A stretch of DNA of 31,438 bases from a virus, in IMG/VR virus record IMGVR_UViG_3300025120_000300, positions 1-31,438 of that record; one strand, 5' to 3'. Each line of letters starts with the position of its first letter. Positions within the stretch are counted from its first letter, which is position 1. The position numbers were made by a program, and so were the translations under genes. Shown one piece after another: positions 3,564-25,329 of this stretch. Below the pieces are notes generated by a model, which had not been told where the DNA came from, did not search any database, and saw nothing but the letters and a program-made list of their open reading frames with translations.

Positions 3564-3825
3564 ATTATCAAGAACAGGAGTTAGTGGTTATAATAAACCT
3601 AAAAGAACGCCTAACCACCCTAAAAAAAGCCATGTTGTAGTTGCTAAGGAAGGTGATAAGATAAAAACTATCAGATTCGGACAGCAAGGAGTTAGTGGTG
3701 CAGGAGCTAATCCTAAGACAAAAAGCGAAAAGGCAAGGCAAAAGAGTTTCAAGGCTAGACACGCAGAGAATATCAAGAAAGGAAAGATGAGTGCTGCTTA
3801 TTGGGCGAATAAAGAAAAATGGTAA
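3544..3825 (+). CDS. Small basic conserved phage protein
   Basis: This 93-aa protein is very basic and rich in K, R, S and G. Three blocks recall a small conserved protein often seen beside portal or terminase genes in AT-rich and marine phages: KTIRFGQQG at 41-49, KSFKARHAENIKKGK in the middle, and MSAAYWANKEKW at the C-terminus. Its function is not established. The positive charge and position suggest nucleic-acid binding or an internal virion protein, which is inference. It overlaps the portal gene by 20 bases. Its TAA shares one base with the ATG of the following methyltransferase, so translation is probably coupled. Confidence 0.75.
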   Translation: MTKKDPRLSRTGVSGYNKPKRTPNHPKKSHVVVAKEGDKIKTIRFGQQGVSGAGANPKTKSEKARQKSFKARHAENIKKGKMSAAYWANKEKW

Positions 3826-5159
3826 TGAAAATAAAAGATTTAATTCTAAAAACTGAAAAAGTTAATTGGCAGGATTTAAAGGATTTGCAACCAGTCAATC
3901 TTAAAAACAATTATCATAGTGATAAAACTAAAAATAGCATTATTAAAAATGGATTCGCAAGGGCAATTTATGTATGGCAAGACAAGAAAGGCGATATATA
4001 TACTGTTGACGGACACCTAAGAGCCGATATATTGCGAGAATTAAAGAATGATGGTTATGATATACCAAATGAATTAAACTGCACCTTTCTTGACCTCCCT
4101 AATAAAAAAACTGCTATAAAATATCTACTACAAGTTTTTAATCAAAAAACTAACCCCATCAATCAAGAAAGTATGGAAATATGGCTTGATGATAATGAGA
4201 TTGTGCTTGAAGATACGGAGGTAGAGCTTGATGAGTTGCATATTGAATTAAATGATGAGGTAGAAGTTGAAGAAGAGCAAGAGGAAGTTAAAGAAGATGA
4301 AGTGCCAGAAGTAAAGCATAGCTTTGTTGTAAAAGGGGATTTGTTTGAATTGATAGATGAAGAGCAGGGGTTAAATCATAGGGTATTGTGTGGGGATTCA
4401 ACTATGATTGATGATGTTGAAAAGGTTATGAATGGGGAAAAGGCTGATTTAATGATTACAGATTTACCTTATGGAGTAAGTTATGCTGATAAAAACAATT
4501 TTCTTAACAATTTAGGCAAAGGTAATAAAATCCAAAAAGAAATAAAAAACGATCATATTGCACCAAATGAATTATATCATTTTGCAAAAAATATATATAT
4601 TCCAGCCTATTCAATAATGAATAAAAAAAATAGTTATTATGCTTTTATGCCTCAAGGTGGGGAACAGATGATGATGATGATGGCTTTAAAAGATAGTGGC
4701 TTTCAAGTTAAGCACGAATTAATATGGCTTAAAAACAATCATGTATTAGGAAGAGCTGATTATTGTTATAAGCACGAGCCTATATGTTATGGTTGGACTG
4801 ATAAAGGAACTCATGAATTTTATTCAAAAGATTTTAAAGTTAGCGTCTTGGAGTTTGATAAGACTGTTTCTAATGATTTGCACCCTACTATGAAGCCTAT
4901 ATCAATCTTGATGGAGCTTATAGCAAATAGCTCTAAACAGAAATTTATCATTTATGATCCTACCTTAGGCTCAGGTTCAACCCTCATTGCCTGCCAACAA
5001 ACTAAAAGAAAATGCTATGGTATAGAACTTGATGAGCATTATTGTGGAGTTGTAATAACTAGATGGAAAAACTATATGGAGAAAGAGGGTAAAAAATACT
5101 CAATCAAAAGAAACGGCGAACAATTTACTTTAACCAATGGAACCAGCAATATTATTTAG
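3825..5159 (+). CDS. ParB-like nuclease domain fused to DNA methyltransferase
   Basis: This is a two-domain protein. Residues about 10-115 form a ParB/sulfiredoxin-like domain with the signature VDGHLRADIL (61-70). A very acidic linker at about 120-163 follows. Residues about 165-444 form an N4-cytosine/N6-adenine methyltransferase: catalytic motif IV DLPYG at 213-217 comes before the SAM-binding motif I DPTLGSGST near 378, the order of the beta class. Such fusions are common in phages and are thought to modify phage DNA, perhaps against host restriction. Motif IV has L in place of the usual P (DLPYG for DPPYG). I choose the ATG at 3825, which overlaps the upstream TAA; an in-frame ATG at 3819 is the alternative. 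Confidence 0.92.
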   Translation: MKIKDLILKTEKVNWQDLKDLQPVNLKNNYHSDKTKNSIIKNGFARAIYVWQDKKGDIYTVDGHLRADILRELKNDGYDIPNELNCTFLDLPNKKTAIKYLLQVFNQKTNPINQESMEIWLDDNEIVLEDTEVELDELHIELNDEVEVEEEQEEVKEDEVPEVKHSFVVKGDLFELIDEEQGLNHRVLCGDSTMIDDVEKVMNGEKADLMITDLPYGVSYADKNNFLNNLGKGNKIQKEIKNDHIAPNELYHFAKNIYIPAYSIMNKKNSYYAFMPQGGEQMMMMMALKDSGFQVKHELIWLKNNHVLGRADYCYKHEPICYGWTDKGTHEFYSKDFKVSVLEFDKTVSNDLHPTMKPISILMELIANSSKQKFIIYDPTLGSGSTLIACQQTKRKCYGIELDEHYCGVVITRWKNYMEKEGKKYSIKRNGEQFTLTNGTSNII

Positions 5160-5196
5160 CCTAATAATGATTTTAGGCATAATTTCAACAATTTAA
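5137..5196 (+). CDS. Candidate 19-residue hydrophobic peptide
   Basis: A short reading frame overlaps the 3' end of the ParB-methyltransferase in another frame and encodes MEPAILFSLIMILGIISTI. It is almost wholly hydrophobic, like a single membrane helix. Its stop lies three bases before the ATG of the next small membrane ORF. It may be a real leader or micro-protein, or simply chance in T-rich DNA. There is no Shine-Dalgarno. Confidence 0.2.
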   Translation: MEPAILFSLIMILGIISTI

Positions 5197-5199
5197 CCT

Positions 5200-5367
5200 A
5201 TGCTAATACTAAAATACTACCTAATCCTATTTTCTCTTGTGATAATCCTAGTAGGAATCAACAAAGAATTTAAGAACAGCAAAAAAACAATCACTAGCTT
5301 TATTTCTATGCTAGTATTTATTGCATATCCTATTATCGTTTCTTGGGTTGCTTATGTCTTTATCTGA
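5200..5367 (+). CDS. Small two-helix membrane protein, 55 aa
   Basis: The ORF encodes two hydrophobic segments, residues about 1-20 and 33-55, separated by a charged turn NKEFKNSKKT (21-30). This predicts a hairpin membrane protein with the loop on the positively charged cytoplasmic side. It overlaps the start of the broken methyltransferase fragment at 5354 by 14 bases, an arrangement typical of real co-translated phage genes. Its function is unknown. It resembles a holin only in being small with two helices, and its position away from the lysis genes argues against that role. Confidence 0.45.
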   Translation: MLILKYYLILFSLVIILVGINKEFKNSKKTITSFISMLVFIAYPIIVSWVAYVFI

Positions 5368-5452
5368 TATAAAGCTATTTCAAGGAGATTGTCTTGAAGT
5401 AATGGGCAATCTTATTTCTCAAAATATCACAGTTGATGCTATTATTACTTGA
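5354..5452 (+). pseudogene. 5' fragment of a DNA methyltransferase (truncated)
   Basis: This frame encodes 32 residues ending in TVDAIIT, then TGA. The segment GDCLEVM...ISQNITVDAIIT closely matches residues 28-49 of the methyltransferase 5' end at 6086-6244 (19 of 22 residues identical from the shared glycine). The DNA differs mostly at third codon positions. In the second copy the next residues are the catalytic DPPYG, so this copy stops exactly before the active site. I read it as the left-hand remnant of a methyltransferase gene interrupted by the endonuclease cassette that follows. Confidence 0.8.
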
Positions 5453-5480
5453 CTCATTTAGATTAGTGTGATATTATAAT
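5449..5480 (+). promoter_or_regulatory. Candidate sigma70-type promoter for the HNH endonuclease
   Basis: TTGACT (5449-5454, 5 of 6 to consensus) is followed after 17 bases by TATTAT (5472-5477, 5 of 6). A perfect TATAAT overlaps it at 5475-5480 with a 20-base spacer. The predicted start lies about 25-30 bases before the endonuclease ATG at 5512. The -35 box begins at the point where homology to methyltransferase ends, consistent with a self-contained mobile cassette. Confidence 0.55.
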
Positions 5481-5511
5481 GTTTTATCATTAAAAATGGG
5501 ATAGTGAAAAA

Positions 5512-6093
5512 ATGGACGATAAAGTAATCGATAAAGTAATATGTTTGTACAGTAAAGGATTGTCAATGAGAAGTATTGCTTTGGAGTTTGGAACTAATCA
5601 CAAGTTAATATCAAGAATACTAAAAGGTAAAAATATTCAAACGAGAAAACCTAAAAATTTAAGAGGCAAGAAAAAGTTTGAGTGCGATAATGAAAGAATT
5701 TACAATAATATGGCTACTCACTTGAGATTTGATGTTGATTATAGGTGGTTAATGCAGTTCAAGGACTTCAAAAAACTTCAGCTACTAAATGATGTGATAA
5801 CAAATAGAAATGGAAGATGGGCAGTTGATACAGAGTGGTACAAAGGATATATAGTTAGATTTTACAGCGATAAGCAATTTAACGGTATATACCACAAATG
5901 GTGTCTAAGTGGATATGAAAAATACAAAAAACCATCAATAGACCACATAGTACCAACATCAAAAGGCGGGACTAACGATTTAAACAACTTGCAGTTTTTA
6001 TCTTGGTTTGAAAATAGATGTAAGAGTAATATGACTCAAGATGAGTGGAATACATTAAAATCAAACATAAAGGAGTATTTTACAAATGAATAA
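5512..6093 (+). CDS. HNH homing endonuclease with N-terminal HTH
   Basis: This 193-aa protein has a resolvase-type helix-turn-helix at about residues 5-40 (YSKGLSMRSIALEFGT...). A C-terminal HNH nuclease fold follows: D144-H145 in IDHIVPTSKGGTNDLNNL, N159, and N168 in FENRCKSNM. There are no zinc-binding CxxC pairs. Free-standing phage HNH enzymes of this kind cut a specific site in related phages and spread themselves with flanking DNA. The gene sits between two copies of a methyltransferase 5' end, has its own promoter, and overlaps the second copy's ATG (6086) by 8 bases. The HTH could set target specificity or act as a regulator. Confidence 0.92.
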   Translation: MDDKVIDKVICLYSKGLSMRSIALEFGTNHKLISRILKGKNIQTRKPKNLRGKKKFECDNERIYNNMATHLRFDVDYRWLMQFKDFKKLQLLNDVITNRNGRWAVDTEWYKGYIVRFYSDKQFNGIYHKWCLSGYEKYKKPSIDHIVPTSKGGTNDLNNLQFLSWFENRCKSNMTQDEWNTLKSNIKEYFTNE

Positions 6094-6244
6094 AGAAAAC
6101 CAACATAAGGAGGATTTGCCATACGGTGCGGTTTTTAATGGTGGTATCAGCTTATATAATGGAGAGTGCTTAGAAGTTATGGACTATCTAATATCACAAA
6201 ACATTACAGTTGATGCTATCATTACAGACCCACCGTATGGTTAG
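6086..6244 (+). pseudogene. Second methyltransferase 5' end, interrupted by in-frame TAG
   Basis: Translation from the ATG at 6086 gives 52 residues ending in TVDAIITDPPYG, the beta-class methyltransferase catalytic motif, followed at once by TAG (6242-6244). The same frame then continues LGTTACKWDS and on to the full C-terminal part. Known relatives read DPPYGTTACKWDS, so a 9-base insertion around ggttagctt would explain the break. The leader has a strong AAAGGAG (6069-6075) ten bases before the ATG, and a second AAGGAGG lies at 6107-6113. This is unlike most genes here and hints at foreign origin. Confidence 0.8.
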
Positions 6245-6292
6245 CTTGGAACAACAGCTTGTAAATGGGATTCAATAATTCCTTTTGATAAG

Positions 6293-6889
6293 ATGTGGCT
6301 AAGGTTAAATAAACTTATTAAACCTAATGGGGCAATAGTTTTATTTGGTAGTGAGCCTTTTAATAGTGCTTTAAGAATGAGTAATATTAAGAATTATAAG
6401 TATGATTGGATTTGGGATAAAAGATTTGGTGCTAATTTCGGAACAGCAAAAATACAACCAATGAAAAGACACGAAATTATAAGTGTGTTTGGAGAAAAGA
6501 AATCCCCTTTATACTATCCACAAATGATAAAAAGAGATACACCGATAAAAATAGGTAAGAACAGTTCAAATAAAAGCGACAGAGGTATGCTTACAAAAAA
6601 TGCTCTAAACAATCCAAATTATGACAATAAAGTATATGATGAAAAGTATCCAGAAAGCATACAGTTGTTTAATATTAGGGATGAGAAAAATAGAGTTCAT
6701 CCAACACAAAAACCAGTTGCATTAATGGAATATCTAATCAAGACCTACACAAATGAAAATGAAACAGTGTTAGACTTCACAATGGGAAGTGGAACTACTA
6801 TGTTAGCTTGTAAAAATACCAATAGAAAAGGTATAGGAATAGAACTTGATAAAAACTACTTTGAAATAGCAGAAAAAAGATGTCTTTAA
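6293..6889 (+). CDS. DNA methyltransferase, C-terminal part (N4/N6, beta class)
   Basis: The 198-aa ORF begins at the first ATG after the TAG at 6242, in the same frame as the 5' segment at 6086. It holds the middle and C-terminal blocks of a DNA methyltransferase: KPNGAIVLFGSEPFN (motif V region), VHPTQKPVALMEYLI, and the SAM-binding motif I LDFTMGSGTT with the following GIGIELDKNYFEIAEKR. It lacks the catalytic DPPY motif, so on its own it should be inactive. Activity would need TAG readthrough or assembly with the separately made N-terminal piece. It overlaps the next gene by 10 bases. I regard it as the 3' part of a broken gene. Confidence 0.88.
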   Translation: MWLRLNKLIKPNGAIVLFGSEPFNSALRMSNIKNYKYDWIWDKRFGANFGTAKIQPMKRHEIISVFGEKKSPLYYPQMIKRDTPIKIGKNSSNKSDRGMLTKNALNNPNYDNKVYDEKYPESIQLFNIRDEKNRVHPTQKPVALMEYLIKTYTNENETVLDFTMGSGTTMLACKNTNRKGIGIELDKNYFEIAEKRCL

Positions 6890-7718: not shown

Positions 7719-8288
7719 ATGCAAAACGAAGAAAGCAATTCAACTGGCGAGGAAAACTCGGTAGCTGAGGAAAAAAGAGAAACTTTGACACTTCCTAAAA
7801 AAGAAGGTGATAAAAAAGAAGCCACGCTAGAAGACTATAAGCTTGGTATGCACAAATATAAAGGGGAGAACAAAGAACTAAAAGAAAGAGTAGCTGAATT
7901 TGAAAGGCTACAAAATGAGGCTCAAAAGAAAAAGCTAGAGGAAGAAGGGAATTTTAAAAAACTTCTTGAACTAAAAGAAGAAGAGTTAGCCAATTTAAAT
8001 TCTAACATAGAGAAAGAAAGGGCAACTAGAAAAAAAGATAATCTTCTAAATACGATTAATCTAAAGGCTCAAGAAAAAGGGGCTATTGATTTTGAAGATA
8101 TAAAGAAATTCTTGGACGTTGATTTGTTAATTGATAGTGATGATGAAGCTATTAATGAAAAACTTAATCAATTACAAGAAAAAAAATCTTATCTTTTTGG
8201 AAGCAAAAAGAAAAGTGCTACTGATGAAAACAATATTGATTTCAGAGGTGGTGATAAAAAAAAGAAATTAATACCTTCTTTTATGTAA
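7719..8288 (+). CDS. Capsid scaffolding protein
   Basis: The protein is 189 aa, highly charged, and free of cysteine and tryptophan. A long predicted coiled coil covers about residues 40-115 (repeated E, K and L heptads), and there is a lysine-rich C-terminal region, as in GP20-type scaffolds that line the inside of the prohead and then leave. A glycine-containing C-terminal tail ends KKKKLIPSFM. It lies immediately before the major capsid gene, the normal place. AAGAGG six bases before the ATG is one of the better Shine-Dalgarno sequences in the window, fitting high expression. Confidence 0.85.
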   Translation: MQNEESNSTGEENSVAEEKRETLTLPKKEGDKKEATLEDYKLGMHKYKGENKELKERVAEFERLQNEAQKKKLEEEGNFKKLLELKEEELANLNSNIEKERATRKKDNLLNTINLKAQEKGAIDFEDIKKFLDVDLLIDSDDEAINEKLNQLQEKKSYLFGSKKKSATDENNIDFRGGDKKKKLIPSFM

Positions 8289-8291
8289 ACT

Positions 8292-8341
8292 CCCCCTTTT
8301 ATTATAAAAATTAGGGGGCTTAACCTTAATTTTTATAATAA
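8292..8341 (+). promoter_or_regulatory. Two mutually exclusive hairpins ending at the capsid start codon
   Basis: TTATTATAAAAATTA at 8299-8313 is a perfect 15-base inverted repeat of TAATTTTTATAATAA at 8327-8341, with a 13-base loop. The right arm ends at the base before the major capsid ATG (8342), where no Shine-Dalgarno exists. An alternative stem CCCCCT (8292-8297) with AGGGGG (8313-8318) would exclude the first. Runs of five C and five G are rare in this AT-rich DNA. The element could control message stability, translation or partial termination between scaffold and capsid. Confidence 0.6.
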
Positions 8342-9547
8342 ATGTCTGATTTTATTTTTTCTTCTATTACAGGAAGTTCATTCTCAAAGAGAAATGTTGA
8401 TGAGCTCTTATATCAAACAATTCAAAGTAGTCCAACTCTAATTGGCTTAATTCAAGGCAGAGAATTTAGTGCAGGAACAGGTATTAATGTTTTTAACCCA
8501 GTTTCTAACGCTGTAAATAGAGCAACTAATACTACTTTTGAGTGGTACGAAAGAATCCTAGCACCTAAAAAAGCGAGTTTAACTGCAGCAGCAGGCAATA
8601 CAACTACTTTTACAGTTGCAGATTCATCTATTTTTAAAGTTGATGATGTTTTGAGGCTTGAGAAGTCCGATGGAAAAGAAATTACTGAACAAGTAATCAT
8701 AACCGCTATTCCAACCGCAACCACTTTAACAGTGACTAGAAATTATAATGGTGTAGGGATTGCTAATTTGCAAAGTGGCAATGAAGTTATTTATTTGGTT
8801 TCTCCAAGACTAGAAGAAGGCTCTGGATCAGTTTCTAGTGAAAATGTCAATCCGACTCCCATTGTAAACTATACTCAAATTTTCAAGGAATCTGCAAGAA
8901 TTACTGAAACTGCCGCAGCAGTTAATCGTTATGCAATTAATGACATTATTTCAGATCAAATTTCACAATCATTTTTGAGATTATTAAGAAATATTGATAA
9001 CCAATTAATTTATGGTTATAAAAATAATTCCATAGCTAACAAACGTTTAACAGGGGGGATGCCTGAATTTATTGATAAAGTGGGTGGTGATAATGTAAAA
9101 GATGCTAACGATACTCAGATCACTCAAGCCATGTTTGATGATGTGTTTGAATCAATGATTAATAAAGGCTCATTACAAAAAGATTTAGCTATCATTTGCA
9201 GTCCTAAGCAGTCAAGACAGGTTTCCGCCTTGTCAATTAATGGCTCAAATCCAATAGTTTACAAATCCTACAAATCTGATTTAGAAGAAGGTCAAGCGGT
9301 TAGTAGAATAAATAGCTCAATATCTGATGGTACTTCTGGAAAAATCATTGTAAACAATGTTTTGCCCAAAAACAAAATTTATATAGTTGATACTTCGAAA
9401 GTCAAAGTGAAGCCGATGAGATATAAGCCTTATGAAGAAATTCCTAATGATAAAGATACTTATGAGGCTCAAATCACTGTTGAATTAGGTTTCCAAATTG
9501 AGCAAGGCGGCGTTTGCCATGGATTAATTAAAAATTTAGCAGTTTAG
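8342..9547 (+). CDS. Major capsid protein (SU10 / DUF5309 type)
   Basis: At 401 aa this matches the SU10-like HK97-fold major capsid family. The diagnostic region is NYTQIFKESARITETAAAV at 176-194, followed by the helix through ISDQISQSFLRLLRNIDNQLIYG (about 200-225). A beta-rich insertion at about 78-152 has repeated T-V-T strands and the typical TVTRNYNGV element. Position directly after a scaffold gene and before small connector genes agrees. The start has no Shine-Dalgarno but a hairpin right before it, odd for what should be the most abundant protein. There is no N-terminal protease-processed domain, consistent with a separate scaffold. Confidence 0.92.
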   Translation: MSDFIFSSITGSSFSKRNVDELLYQTIQSSPTLIGLIQGREFSAGTGINVFNPVSNAVNRATNTTFEWYERILAPKKASLTAAAGNTTTFTVADSSIFKVDDVLRLEKSDGKEITEQVIITAIPTATTLTVTRNYNGVGIANLQSGNEVIYLVSPRLEEGSGSVSSENVNPTPIVNYTQIFKESARITETAAAVNRYAINDIISDQISQSFLRLLRNIDNQLIYGYKNNSIANKRLTGGMPEFIDKVGGDNVKDANDTQITQAMFDDVFESMINKGSLQKDLAIICSPKQSRQVSALSINGSNPIVYKSYKSDLEEGQAVSRINSSISDGTSGKIIVNNVLPKNKIYIVDTSKVKVKPMRYKPYEEIPNDKDTYEAQITVELGFQIEQGGVCHGLIKNLAV

Positions 9548-9548
9548 C

Positions 9549-9710
9549 ATGTTTAAATTCAAGGAAAACTTCACAGGTTGGCTTGTTGTAGGAGATTTTC
9601 AGGTTGATCTAGTAAAAGGCGTTTATTCCACTGAAAATAAAGATATTATCAAAGCCCTAAAAGCCGATGATAGATTTATTGAGGAAAAAGTTAAGACTAA
9701 AAAAGACTAA
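9549..9710 (+). CDS. Small protein between capsid and connector, 53 aa
   Basis: The ORF starts two bases after the capsid stop and its TAA shares an A with the ATG of the next gene, strongly suggesting a real, coupled gene. It reads MFKFKENFTGWLVVGD..., a short beta-rich start followed by a lysine-rich helical tail. Small proteins of this shape often follow capsid genes as head-tail joining or head-stabilising factors, but no family can be named. A second protein of similar size and style lies at 11550-11777. Confidence 0.7.
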   Translation: MFKFKENFTGWLVVGDFQVDLVKGVYSTENKDIIKALKADDRFIEEKVKTKKD

Positions 9711-19469: not shown

Positions 19470-19500
19470 ATGGAAAAAACAGGATTTTTTAATAACTCTA
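19470..19500 (+). repeat. 31-bp direct repeat shared by the two fiber genes (copy 1)
   Basis: Bases 19470-19500 are identical to 21949-21979. Both begin at the ATG of an S74 fiber and encode MEKTGFFNNS plus the start of the next codon. Sequences before and after differ. Recombination between the copies would remove 2479 bases and leave a single fiber gene. Confidence 0.9.
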
Positions 19501-21677
19501 GACAAGTTTTAAAAACTATAGAAGGTCAAACTCTGGAGGGGTTAGGAGATATTGACATCACAAAGGCAGATGTAGATTTATCTAATGTTGATAACACGAG
19601 CGATGCTGATAAACCAGTTTCAACAGCTCAACAGACTGCTTTAGATTTAAAAATTGATAAAGTTTCAAGCCCAACTAACAATGATGTAGCAAAAATAAAC
19701 TCCGATGGAGAAATTGAAAATAGCGGTATTCAACTAAGCAATATTGAATTAAATACCAATAAAGCTACTTCTTTTCAAAACACACCAAATGACAACAAGT
19801 ATCCTAGTGAAAAACTAGTAAAAGATAGCCTCGATTCAAAAGAGAATAGCTCAAATAAAGTAGCTTCTTTTCAAAACACACCAAATGACAACAAGTATCC
19901 TAGTGAAAAACTTGTTAAAGATAATTTAGATTTAAAATCTAACATTGATGATATTAAAGACAATTTAACGTCAAATAACGTAGATAAACCTTTATCAGCT
20001 AATCAAGGAAAAGTGTTGCAAAATGGCAAAGCTAATAAAATTACTGGAGGAACTGATGGTAATATAACTACTAGAGATGCTAACGGAGATATTCAAGATT
20101 CTGGAAATTCTATTGCAGACGTTAAAAATAGGACAAATCACACAGGAACTCAAGCAATAAGCACAGTAAGTGGTTTACAAACCGAATTGGATGCTAAAGC
20201 CGCAAGAGACACAGATGCGGTAACAAATAATGTTGTTATTTTTGATTCTAACGGAAACCCAGTAGATGGAGGGACGAATTTAGCTGATCTCAATGATGGG
20301 TGGGATGGAGAAGTAAATACTTTTGCTGTTTTACCTTCTGCAAGCTCTAATAATGGTAAAAAATATATTGTTAAAACTCCTACAGGAACAATTATTTTAG
20401 GGACGAAAAAATATGCAGGCACATATATTTCTGATGGAACAAATTGGAATATATTCGGATATAAACAGTCTAGTGTTATTAACCAATTACTAACAGGCTT
20501 TACTGCTCACGCTTCTGTTGTAGCTATTAGTTCTACCGATTCTATACTTGCTGGTTTTCAGAAATCACAAAAATATTTTAATGATTATTTAAGTAATTTT
20601 AATGGGGCAAATCAACTTACTAAACTTGATTCTTCGGGCAAAGTTCCATCATTAATCTATAATGAGATTGAAGCTAGTAATAAAATAAATTTAAATGATA
20701 ACCAAATTAACCTCAGAGGTACGACAAACAATAACAATAACGATCATTACATTAAATTTGTTGAATTTACTGTGGGTGGTGCTAATGGCGTAGAAATAAG
20801 GGGTCATTCGGGCGTTAAAATAGTCAATCAGCTAGAAGTGACAGATAAAATAAATTTAAATGATAACAAAATTAATTTCAGAGGTACGACAAATAATAAT
20901 GACAACAATCATTACATTAAATTTAATTCCTCAAATGATGGTATTCAAATTAAATCTAACGACACAACCTTAATTTCTGATTTTTGCAAATTTGAAGGAA
21001 ATAAATCACTGACTAAAAATTTTGGATATTTTAACTCTAGTGCAAATACAGGCACGGCTACTAATTATACAGGAAATTACAGTGCTGAATTTTCGCAAAG
21101 AATTTTAGCAGATGAGTTTAACGCTACCTCTGATGCGAGAATCAAAAATATTATATCTATTTCAGATGGTAAAAAAGATTTAGAAATTTTAGAAAAAATA
21201 GAAATCTGTGATTTTACTTATAAAGATAAAATTGCAAAAGGCAGTAGAATAAGAAAAAAAGTAATTGCTCAACAGGTGGAGAAAGTTTTCCCTCAATCAG
21301 TTTCAGAAGTTGAAAGCGTTATTCCTTCTGTATTCAAGGAATACGAAGTTGCAGAAAATAAAATTTTTATCGATACAGCAAGTTTTAATTTAAAAGTAAA
21401 TTCAAAATTACAAGTAATAACAGAAAACGAAAACGAAACGCAAAATCATAAAATAACAATTAAGGAAGTTAAAAGTAATTTTATTGTTGTTGATAAGTCA
21501 TTTGAAAAAAAGCGGATTTTCGTTTATGGAGAATTTGTTAAGGATTTTAAAGTTGTAGATTATGAGGAAATTGCTATGTTAGCGGTTTCTGTAATTCAGG
21601 AGCAGTCTAAGACTATAGAAAGAATTTCTAGGGATTTAGAGAAGCTTTCTCAAAATATAAAAAAGTTAAAACCTTAA
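19470..21677 (+). CDS. Tail fiber 1 with C-terminal S74 intramolecular chaperone
   Basis: A 735-aa trimeric fiber. Residues 1-10 (MEKTGFFNNS) match the second fiber exactly and are likely the virion anchor. Next come collar-type segments (DVDLSNVDNTSDADKP), a tandem 32-residue repeat, and 'RGTTNNN..HYIKF' beta repeats separated by 55 residues. The C-terminal S74 self-cleaving chaperone begins near 550 with TSDARIKNI (Ser and Lys of the dyad) and contains KVIAQQVEKVFPQSVSEV. After it come a beta domain, DYEEIAMLAVSVIQEQ, and a final coiled coil. In this family the chaperone trims itself off after trimerisation. The absence of a Shine-Dalgarno is typical of this operon. Confidence 0.9.
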   Translation: MEKTGFFNNSRQVLKTIEGQTLEGLGDIDITKADVDLSNVDNTSDADKPVSTAQQTALDLKIDKVSSPTNNDVAKINSDGEIENSGIQLSNIELNTNKATSFQNTPNDNKYPSEKLVKDSLDSKENSSNKVASFQNTPNDNKYPSEKLVKDNLDLKSNIDDIKDNLTSNNVDKPLSANQGKVLQNGKANKITGGTDGNITTRDANGDIQDSGNSIADVKNRTNHTGTQAISTVSGLQTELDAKAARDTDAVTNNVVIFDSNGNPVDGGTNLADLNDGWDGEVNTFAVLPSASSNNGKKYIVKTPTGTIILGTKKYAGTYISDGTNWNIFGYKQSSVINQLLTGFTAHASVVAISSTDSILAGFQKSQKYFNDYLSNFNGANQLTKLDSSGKVPSLIYNEIEASNKINLNDNQINLRGTTNNNNNDHYIKFVEFTVGGANGVEIRGHSGVKIVNQLEVTDKINLNDNKINFRGTTNNNDNNHYIKFNSSNDGIQIKSNDTTLISDFCKFEGNKSLTKNFGYFNSSANTGTATNYTGNYSAEFSQRILADEFNATSDARIKNIISISDGKKDLEILEKIEICDFTYKDKIAKGSRIRKKVIAQQVEKVFPQSVSEVESVIPSVFKEYEVAENKIFIDTASFNLKVNSKLQVITENENETQNHKITIKEVKSNFIVVDKSFEKKRIFVYGEFVKDFKVVDYEEIAMLAVSVIQEQSKTIERISRDLEKLSQNIKKLKP
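19768..19912 (+). repeat. Tandem 96-bp repeat inside fiber 1
   Basis: Forty-nine bases at 19768-19816 recur exactly at 19864-19912, a period of 96 bases or 32 codons. The encoded unit contains SFQNTPNDNKYPSEKLVKD twice. The units differ slightly after the identical core, so the repeat preserves frame and likely builds a repeated shaft module. It could expand or contract by slippage. Confidence 0.9.
20680..20925 (+). repeat. Imperfect 165-bp spaced repeat inside fiber 1
   Basis: Bases 20680-20760 and 20845-20925 are near-identical, with an offset of 165 bases (55 codons). They encode INLNDNQINLRGTTNN... and INLNDNKINFRGTTNN..., each leading to HYIKF. This is a beta-helix-like fiber module. 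Fiber 2 has weaker versions of the same motif (FRGSNGSDTNHFIKY). Confidence 0.8.
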
Positions 21678-21948: not shown

Positions 21949-21979
21949 ATGGAAAAAACAGGATTTTTTAATAACTCTA
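21949..21979 (+). repeat. 31-bp direct repeat shared by the two fiber genes (copy 2)
   Basis: This copy is identical to 19470-19500 and is placed exactly at the start codon of fiber 2. See the first copy for its possible effect. Confidence 0.9.
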
Positions 21980-23592
21980 AAATAACTCAAATTTTAGATG
22001 GTTTTCAAAATTTTAGCGCAGGAGAAATTACAACAACAACTGTCGAATTAACTAGAAATGATAATGGTGGTTACTTTGGAAACATTTTTGGCAATATAGA
22101 TACTATTTTAATTCTAAAAAAGGACGACCCAAAAACACACATTTATAAAGCAGGCAGTATTTTAACGACTGCCTCAAATCAAGTAAGGATTATAGCTAAA
22201 AATGGCAACACTCTTACTTTATCAGCAGTACCAAAGAATAATGTTGAGATTAGAATATGGTATAAATATTCAGCTTCAAATATTCCATTAAATTATTTTC
22301 CTTTGCCTTTTTCCCTATCAGCAAAGGCGATACAAAGCTATACTACGCAATGGCTAGCTCTAGCTAGCTCTTCAAGTCCCACGACATTGACCCAATCTTT
22401 ATCGATGAATGATTTTCCCATGTACTTCAGGGGTTCTAATGGAAGCGATACAAACCACTTTATAAAATATAATAACTTTATTGATGGAGTAGAAATTAAG
22501 GGTTATGCAGGAATACTATTGTCAGGTAGTAGCGGAGTTGAGTTTGGAGGAAATATAAAACTAAATAATAAAAAAATAGAATTTACCAATACCATATTTG
22601 GAACTAGCAGTAATTATTATATGGGTTTTTTTTCTAATCCAAACAGGTTAGAAATTAAGGCATACAGTGACATAATTAGATTAAAGAACAGCACGGAGGT
22701 TGAAGGAAATCTAACTGCTTCTGGCACTGTTTCTGGCAATTTTTCTGGTAGTCTTTCGCTAAATTCAAACAAATTATATTTAAGAAGCTCAAATAATAAT
22801 GTTGATTATATTGAATATAGCAACAATAAAACCAATTTTTCGAGCAATTCAGAATTTAATTTTAATAAATTTATTGAAATTGCAGGGTCAAAGACTATAA
22901 CCGCCACTTCGGCAGGTGGAGCATATGATTTTGATTACTCTCAAGAAGAGGGCTATTCAGATCAAGAAAGCTATTCTTTAACAGCCTCATACTCCTTAAA
23001 AACTTCTGAAAGAGTTTTGGTAAAGGGAGTAACAATTACTTCTGACAAAAGGTTAAAAGAAAATATTGAAATATCTTCAAAACAAGAAAACTTAAAAGTA
23101 TTAGAAAAAATAAAAATAAGTGATTATAATTTAATAGGAAATAGCAATAAAGAAAAAAAAATTATTGCTCAAGACTTAGAAAAAGTCTTTCCCCAAGCTG
23201 TGTCAAAAATAGTAGATTTTATACCTAATATTAATAAACACGTTTTTATTAAAAATCTTGGAAAAGATAGTATAGAAATTGATTTAAATAATCATAATTT
23301 AGTTTCTGGGGATGAATTAAGATTTAAAATCTTTAAAAGAAACAATCAATATATTGACCAACAAAGTATTGATTTATTTGTCAAGAAAGTTGAAAAAGAG
23401 AAAATTTTTCTTGAATATTCTGATAATTGCAATTTGCAAGTTGGACAAAAAATTTACCTTTTTGGAAAAAAAGTCCAAGATGTAAGAATGATTGATTATC
23501 AAGAAGTTTTTTGCTTGAATGTTTCGGCAACTCAAGAACTACTAGAGCGAGTTAGAAAACTTGAAGATATTATTTTAAATTTAATAAAATGA
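21949..23592 (+). CDS. Tail fiber 2 with C-terminal S74 intramolecular chaperone
   Basis: A 547-aa paralogue of fiber 1. The first ten residues are the same (MEKTGFFNNS) and so are the first 31 bases. The middle is unrelated until repeats of the FRGSNG...HFIKY type. The S74 domain begins near residue 363 with TSDKRLKENIEIS (Ser/Lys dyad) and contains KIIAQDLEKVFPQAVSKI, followed by a beta domain and a terminal coiled coil with LNVSATQELLERVRKLED. Two fibers with one anchor and different shafts suggest two receptor specificities, or alternative fibers on the same tail. The end overlaps the next gene by 4 bases. Confidence 0.9.
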   Translation: MEKTGFFNNSKITQILDGFQNFSAGEITTTTVELTRNDNGGYFGNIFGNIDTILILKKDDPKTHIYKAGSILTTASNQVRIIAKNGNTLTLSAVPKNNVEIRIWYKYSASNIPLNYFPLPFSLSAKAIQSYTTQWLALASSSSPTTLTQSLSMNDFPMYFRGSNGSDTNHFIKYNNFIDGVEIKGYAGILLSGSSGVEFGGNIKLNNKKIEFTNTIFGTSSNYYMGFFSNPNRLEIKAYSDIIRLKNSTEVEGNLTASGTVSGNFSGSLSLNSNKLYLRSSNNNVDYIEYSNNKTNFSSNSEFNFNKFIEIAGSKTITATSAGGAYDFDYSQEEGYSDQESYSLTASYSLKTSERVLVKGVTITSDKRLKENIEISSKQENLKVLEKIKISDYNLIGNSNKEKKIIAQDLEKVFPQAVSKIVDFIPNINKHVFIKNLGKDSIEIDLNNHNLVSGDELRFKIFKRNNQYIDQQSIDLFVKKVEKEKIFLEYSDNCNLQVGQKIYLFGKKVQDVRMIDYQEVFCLNVSATQELLERVRKLEDIILNLIK

Positions 23593-25184: not shown

Positions 25185-25329
25185 GGAGTGTGTAAATACT
25201 CCTAATAAAATTAGGGGCAGAATGTGTATATTTTGCGTTATTGTGTTTGTTGTAGGACTAATCTACACAGCTAATAATATTATTAGCAAACCTATAAATT
25301 TTGAAGGAAAAATGGAAAGAGCAAAATGA
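25159..25329 (+). CDS. Small single-helix membrane protein, 56 aa
   Basis: The ORF starts inside the previous gene and ends with the ATGA overlap at 25326, the pattern of translationally coupled genes. A basic N-terminal amphipathic segment precedes a membrane helix (MCIFCVIVFVVGLIYTA, residues about 22-38) and a short polar tail. It has the size of a holin or antiholin. No family is recognised. Confidence 0.6.
   Translation: MKTLIKLIEECVNTPNKIRGRMCIFCVIVFVVGLIYTANNIISKPINFEGKMERAK

Follow-up and report, generated by a model that had tools for sequence, protein, structure and literature searches.

The window analysed here is a virus record of 31,438 bases with a G+C content of 30%, in which the genes follow the order terminase, methylases, head maturation protease-like protein, probable scaffold, SU10-type major capsid protein and tape measure. 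The capsid protein belongs to the SU10_MCP family, since it matches Pfam PF17236 across most of its length (residues 12-399, E 4.7e-41, 141.6 bits against a curated cut-off of 24.1), and it also matches PHROG 1328, a major head protein, at E 3.9e-33. The scaffold assignment is based on the slot directly upstream of the capsid gene, as in relatives; the match of this 189-aa protein to the Pfam Phage_scaffold profile is sub-threshold (E 0.017; 15.5 bits where 35 are required). The two genes are separated by a gap of 53 nt, and the features at this junction are as follows.

7719..8288, + strand: probable scaffolding protein gene, 189 aa, stop codon TAA at 8286-8288
8292..8297, + strand: CCCCCT, left strand of a 6-bp GC stem (from the sequence and a forced fold)
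8298..8316, + strand: left arm of a 19-bp hairpin (16 perfect pairs plus a G-U and a further two G-C pairs)
8313..8318, + strand: AGGGGG, right strand of the GC stem and a Shine-Dalgarno-like run, with four of the six bases taking part in the long stem
8317..8323, + strand: hairpin loop GGCTTAA, 7 nt, from RNA folding
8324..8342, + strand: right arm of the hairpin, its last base being the A of the capsid ATG
8342..9547, + strand: major capsid protein gene, SU10_MCP family, 401 aa (Pfam and PHROG profiles)

Several other features of the record may be mentioned. Directly downstream of the capsid gene an unlisted 53-codon ORF (9549-9710) fills the gap, its stop overlapping the next ATG. Two DNA methylase genes flank an HNH endonuclease gene at 3819-6889, in the part of the head module that precedes the head protease-like gene. 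The tail-fibre-like genes at 19470-21677 and 21949-23592 begin with the identical residues MEKTGFFNNS and each carry a Peptidase_S74 chaperone domain, so this pair is likely a duplication. The best matches of the single-strand binding protein in the plasmid collection are alphaproteobacterial (about 67% identity), a weak hint that the host may belong to the same class.

The perfect arms of the hairpin are 8298-8313, TTTATTATAAAAATTA, and its exact reverse complement at 8327-8342, which form 16 pairs, and RNA folding adds G8314-U8326, G8315-C8325 and G8316-C8324, extending the stem to 19 bp, mostly A-U. The first-pass annotation had described a perfect 15-bp hairpin with the right arm ending one base before the ATG; the inverted repeat is present, but its length was understated, and the last paired base is the A of the ATG itself (8342). 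The folding energies that the annotation had proposed as a check bear out the long hairpin with its 19 pairs: a 121-nt RNA folds at -26.3 kcal/mol (z -3.84), with none of 200 shuffles equally stable, and a 57-nt RNA at -18.5 kcal/mol (z -3.49; 1 of 200). The hairpin ranks first among the 49 inverted-repeat pairs of the window and is the longest in the record. When the whole window was dinucleotide-shuffled, with loops of up to 40 allowed, a perfect repeat of at least 16 arose in 1 of 200 shuffles and one of at least 15 in 3 of 200, a count that does not take in the location within the 53-nt gap, exactly at a gene start. The hairpin is thereby confirmed as real and beyond chance; no second copy of it was found within the window.

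It had been stated that the capsid gene has no Shine-Dalgarno (SD) sequence, which is true at normal spacing, the SD-like run AGGGGG lying 23 nt upstream of the ATG and partly within the stem. However, this is not a special feature of the capsid gene, because SD-like pairing throughout the virus is that of shuffled sequence: the mean predicted pairing to the 16S tail upstream of 39 starts is -1.09 kcal/mol versus -1.16 kcal/mol in shuffled upstream sequence, and -4.4 kcal/mol is reached at 4 of the 39 starts versus 7% of the shuffles. The virus uses no SD above these controls. What sets the capsid start apart is accessibility. Over positions -15 to +3 its unpaired probability is 0.10, the lowest of 40 starts (the next is 0.24), and its folding z of -3.9 is the most negative of the 40 (the next is -2.9). 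Since the start region is predicted to be closed, the earlier suggestion of translational control or a cleavage site remains a fair reading, though its attenuator and switch versions are not supported.

To see which RNAs would open the start, we folded molecules with varied 5' ends and scored the unpaired probability of the 18 nt from -15 to +3. It amounts to 0.09-0.10 in read-through RNA (0.10 for a 5' end at 8289) and rises to 0.20, 0.43, 0.54, 0.65 and 0.70 as the 5' end moves to 8304, 8308, 8310, 8313 and 8325, respectively, so that with a 5' end at about 8310 or later this region reaches the openness predicted for the remaining genes. The AUG triplet by itself barely changes, from 0.55-0.57 unpaired in read-through RNA to 0.63 once the left arm is gone, since it contributes no more than its A to the stem; this somewhat weakens the case for closure of the start. 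Masking the RNA up to 8297 or 8300 leaves the hairpin standing at -24.5 or -21.4 kcal/mol, and with the mask at 8300, which approximates the footprint of a ribosome on the scaffold stop, the start region stays at 0.19. Simple coupling of capsid to scaffold translation therefore fails to explain expression. Reinitiation after the scaffold stop is a weak candidate, given the 53 nt to be crossed and the hairpin still standing. A programmed bypass linking the scaffold ATG-TAA with the capsid ATG, faintly reminiscent of T4 gene 60, was dropped: in relatives the two genes are separate, and the capsid profile match starts at residue 12.

The reading that we consider likeliest, though we hold it tentatively and at less than an even chance, is that the hairpin closes the capsid start in RNA reading through from the scaffold gene and that the start opens by means of a 5' end within the left arm or loop, created by a double-strand RNase or by internal initiation of transcription, a mechanism of a known type. 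The read-through RNA would hold both arms, with the 18 nt round the capsid start computed to be almost wholly paired. In the cell the left arm would be removed, most likely by an RNase III-type enzyme cutting the 19-bp stem; an internal transcription start may be an alternative source of RNA without the left arm. The long helix of 19 pairs is continuous, without a bulge, as would be expected of a leader processed by RNase III, an enzyme that acts on continuous helices. We rank cleavage above an internal promoter because the continuous helix suits this enzyme and because promoter-like sites in the gap are not above chance (four sites matching at 8/12 positions, 3.4 expected from shuffles). Removal of the left arm would leave an A/U-rich leader of the SD-free kind present at the other genes of the virus, which does not rely on SD. 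The capsid protein, of which large amounts are needed, would then be made from RNA without the left arm; processing would split the scaffold and capsid messages, and capsid synthesis would depend on it. Points against this reading are the mostly A-U make-up of the stem and the lack of a homologous leader, and with it of signs of selection on the pairing, among the relatives found.

Both halves of this proposal have precedents. In Staphylococcus aureus, RNase III cuts an almost perfect 32-bp helix in the cspA leader, with higher stability and translation as the result (PMC3386247). The likeness lies in a long near-perfect helix upstream of the start, the cutting of which would free the start; however, the cspA helix has 32 bp and is accompanied by an SD, whereas here the stem has 19 bp and includes the start base, and cleavage is a proposal. 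In phage T4, according to PMC3014915, the starts of genes e, soc, 49 and I-TevI are hidden in RNA helices, and gene e is well translated from late RNA, supplied by late promoters, in which the 5' part of the helix is missing. As in these cases, a phage gene start is paired here with upstream RNA of read-through transcripts, although the closure is a prediction (0.10 over -15 to +3). For T4 gene e late promoters exist and the effect was measured (PMC3014915), whereas in the window no promoter stands out and the gene is that of the major capsid protein. The split ribosome-binding sites of T4 genes 38 and 25 (same source) are similar in having an SD-like run far from the ATG (23 nt here) with structure involved; there, however, the structure between SD and AUG shortens the distance, while here the run lies in the stem top and loop, the partner of the right arm is located upstream of the G-run, and the distance is unshortened.

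Searches for other known elements gave nothing. Neither a T4-type late promoter nor a tRNA emerged; matches to a Bacteroidota-type promoter numbered 3 against 3.5 expected, and Rfam 15 gave 0 matches in the window at gathering score. Our literature search, in which subscription papers were thinly covered and from which we claim no absence in print, returned nothing to the point on hairpins or terminators at scaffold-capsid junctions, and for intercistronic RNase III sites at capsid genes its sole match concerns lambda replication. The accessible part of PMC12282133 deals with promoter motifs before a capsid gene and describes no such hairpin.

Relatives of the virus are remote. Searches with the capsid, terminase, portal and tape measure proteins turned up no relative whose capsid is more than 31% identical across a useful stretch; the capsid relatives lie at 20-31%, except for L045 with 40% over 60 residues, and the window occupies a long branch of the capsid tree. 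No homologous capsid leader was found among them. A search of viral_contigs for the exact right arm gave nothing; the pattern AATTAGGGGGCTTAAC matched once, at a terminator-like site in L046, and L046 has none of the ten window proteins tried. Like that of the window, the leaders of L012, L015 and L026 have no SD; they are A/T-rich, and their arms at the start measure only 5-6 bp. Arms of at least 6 bp that reach the capsid ATG occur in 5 of 32 relatives (8 bp in L021, 7 in L040 and L044, 6 in L014 and L015), none of them near 16 bp, versus 4 of 129 other SD-bearing starts at the same loci (one-sided Fisher p 0.016); this comparison is post hoc and slightly biased, the relatives are not independent, and the capsid set is unfiltered for SD while the control set is filtered. 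We treat the recurrence of hairpins abutting the ATG as only a lead.

In relatives the gap itself can carry a hairpin of a different kind. Of the 37 relatives supplied, 36 could be assessed, and in 13 of them (L007, L010, L016-L019, L021, L025, L027, L032, L042-L044) a terminator-like hairpin, inside the head operon, separates the upstream ORF from the capsid start; under stricter rules the count is 11 of 21 loci, several of which have such sites elsewhere in the locus too. Its most frequent form is AGTCGCC..GGCGGCTTTTTT, after which comes AGGGG(G) or a comparable SD, at 7-11 nt from the ATG; the hairpin could be a partial terminator or a stabiliser of the 5' end of the capsid RNA. The frequency of these hairpins, in the same gap and on the same strand, speaks for a role of the window hairpin as RNA punctuation, i.e., as their non-terminating counterpart that shields the 3' end of the scaffold RNA or the 5' end of the capsid RNA from exonucleases without controlling translation. 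We regard this as possible, though not probable. The hairpins of the relatives have a GC-rich stem with a T-run after it, lie upstream of a free SD and ATG, and share no sequence similarity with that of the window, which covers the start and has no T-run; moreover, their bearers are for the most part phages of the Bacillus type and include several near-duplicates. The palindrome may also be neutral or recent and do little: template switching would have placed one arm, a short inverted copy, between the ATG and an older SD-like block. Such an origin would fit the AGGGGG located 7-9 nt upstream of the capsid ATG in several relatives, where the right arm intervenes in the window. By eye the likeness of the leader block around AGGGGG to those of the relatives is striking, yet beyond the G-run the leader matches them no better than anchored shuffles do (best match p 0.20, mean p 0.11), and we do not count it as evidence. 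A palindrome blocking the start of the capsid gene should, moreover, be selected against unless the virus has a way of handling it. We consider this origin unlikely.

Rather unlikely, too, is a late transcription start of the T4 gene e type, with the -10 element in the left arm and RNA that begins at about 8314 without this arm. The sequence TATAAA at 8303-8308 does lie 17 nt after TTTATG (8280-8285), with a predicted start at 8314-8316, and a 5' end there opens the start region in the folds. However, this pair matches at 8 of 12 positions, and sites of this grade are no more numerous than in shuffles, while in the window TATAAAAA occurs 12 times against 9.2 expected, barely above, and TATAAATA 3 times against 3.8. 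Lower still we place a switch between the GC stem and the long hairpin that would determine the ratio of scaffold to capsid. The CCCCCT/AGGGGG stem exists as the first-pass annotation had stated, its C5 and G5 runs, 17 nt apart at the leader, are rare in the record (4 and 7 overlapping positions), and in prefix folds it forms first during RNA synthesis, to be displaced once about 8336 is transcribed. The claim that the two stems cannot form together is right for the whole structures and not pair by pair: they share only 8313-8316, the top four pairs of the long stem, while the lower 15 pairs sit in the loop of the GC stem. When forced, the GC stem reaches -10.6 kcal/mol versus -19.3 for the long hairpin, i.e., it is about 8.7 kcal/mol weaker, and at 10 C the values are -15.1 and -30.9; a ribosome terminating on the scaffold gene would cover CCCCCT without removing the long hairpin. 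Neither stem has a U-tract directly after it, the gap contains no terminator-like site (a GC-rich stem with a T-run at once after it), and the leader shows no conserved motif or Rfam match, so an attenuator or switch is not supported. Finally, a perfect palindrome is equally present in the DNA, where it might be an operator or other DNA signal, but the + strand RNA folds better than the - strand (-18.5 kcal/mol, z -3.5, against -13.2 kcal/mol, z -1.1, for stretches that differ by 3 nt), and the window contains no second copy; we consider such a role very unlikely.

Phages must balance the amounts and the timing of scaffold and capsid. If closure of the start by the hairpin is the correct reading, capsid output would hinge on RNA processing, a control step that can be tested, and the principle seen in T4 gene e and cspA would extend to a major structural gene in a virus that does not use SD; if the palindrome is neutral, it calls for caution in reading palindromes in A/T-rich genomes. 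One can further suggest, as a long shot, that in viruses with SU10-type capsids, such as this SD-less one, a start-codon hairpin gates capsid synthesis until the scaffold-capsid message is cut, weaker hairpins with the right arm reaching the ATG and an SD in the loop recurring in the unrelated L021, L040, L044 and L014.

Two minor observations concern other sites. At 25185-25329 of the window a hairpin, GGAGTGTGTAAATACTCC, is followed by AAAATTAGGGG 4 nt upstream of the ATG of an unlisted 35-codon ORF (25222-25329), and this 11-mer is also present in the capsid leader. Among the relatives, the capsid genes of L012 (from 4962), L026 (from 4881) and L030 (from 4890), which were read under codes 4, 11 and 15 only, contain in-frame TGA codons, many of them where relatives have glycine (for example, ..IGTG*VAT.. 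versus ..IGVGGIA..). Such a pattern would fit phages of Gracilibacteria or Absconditabacteria, bacteria with code 25, in which TGA is read as glycine.
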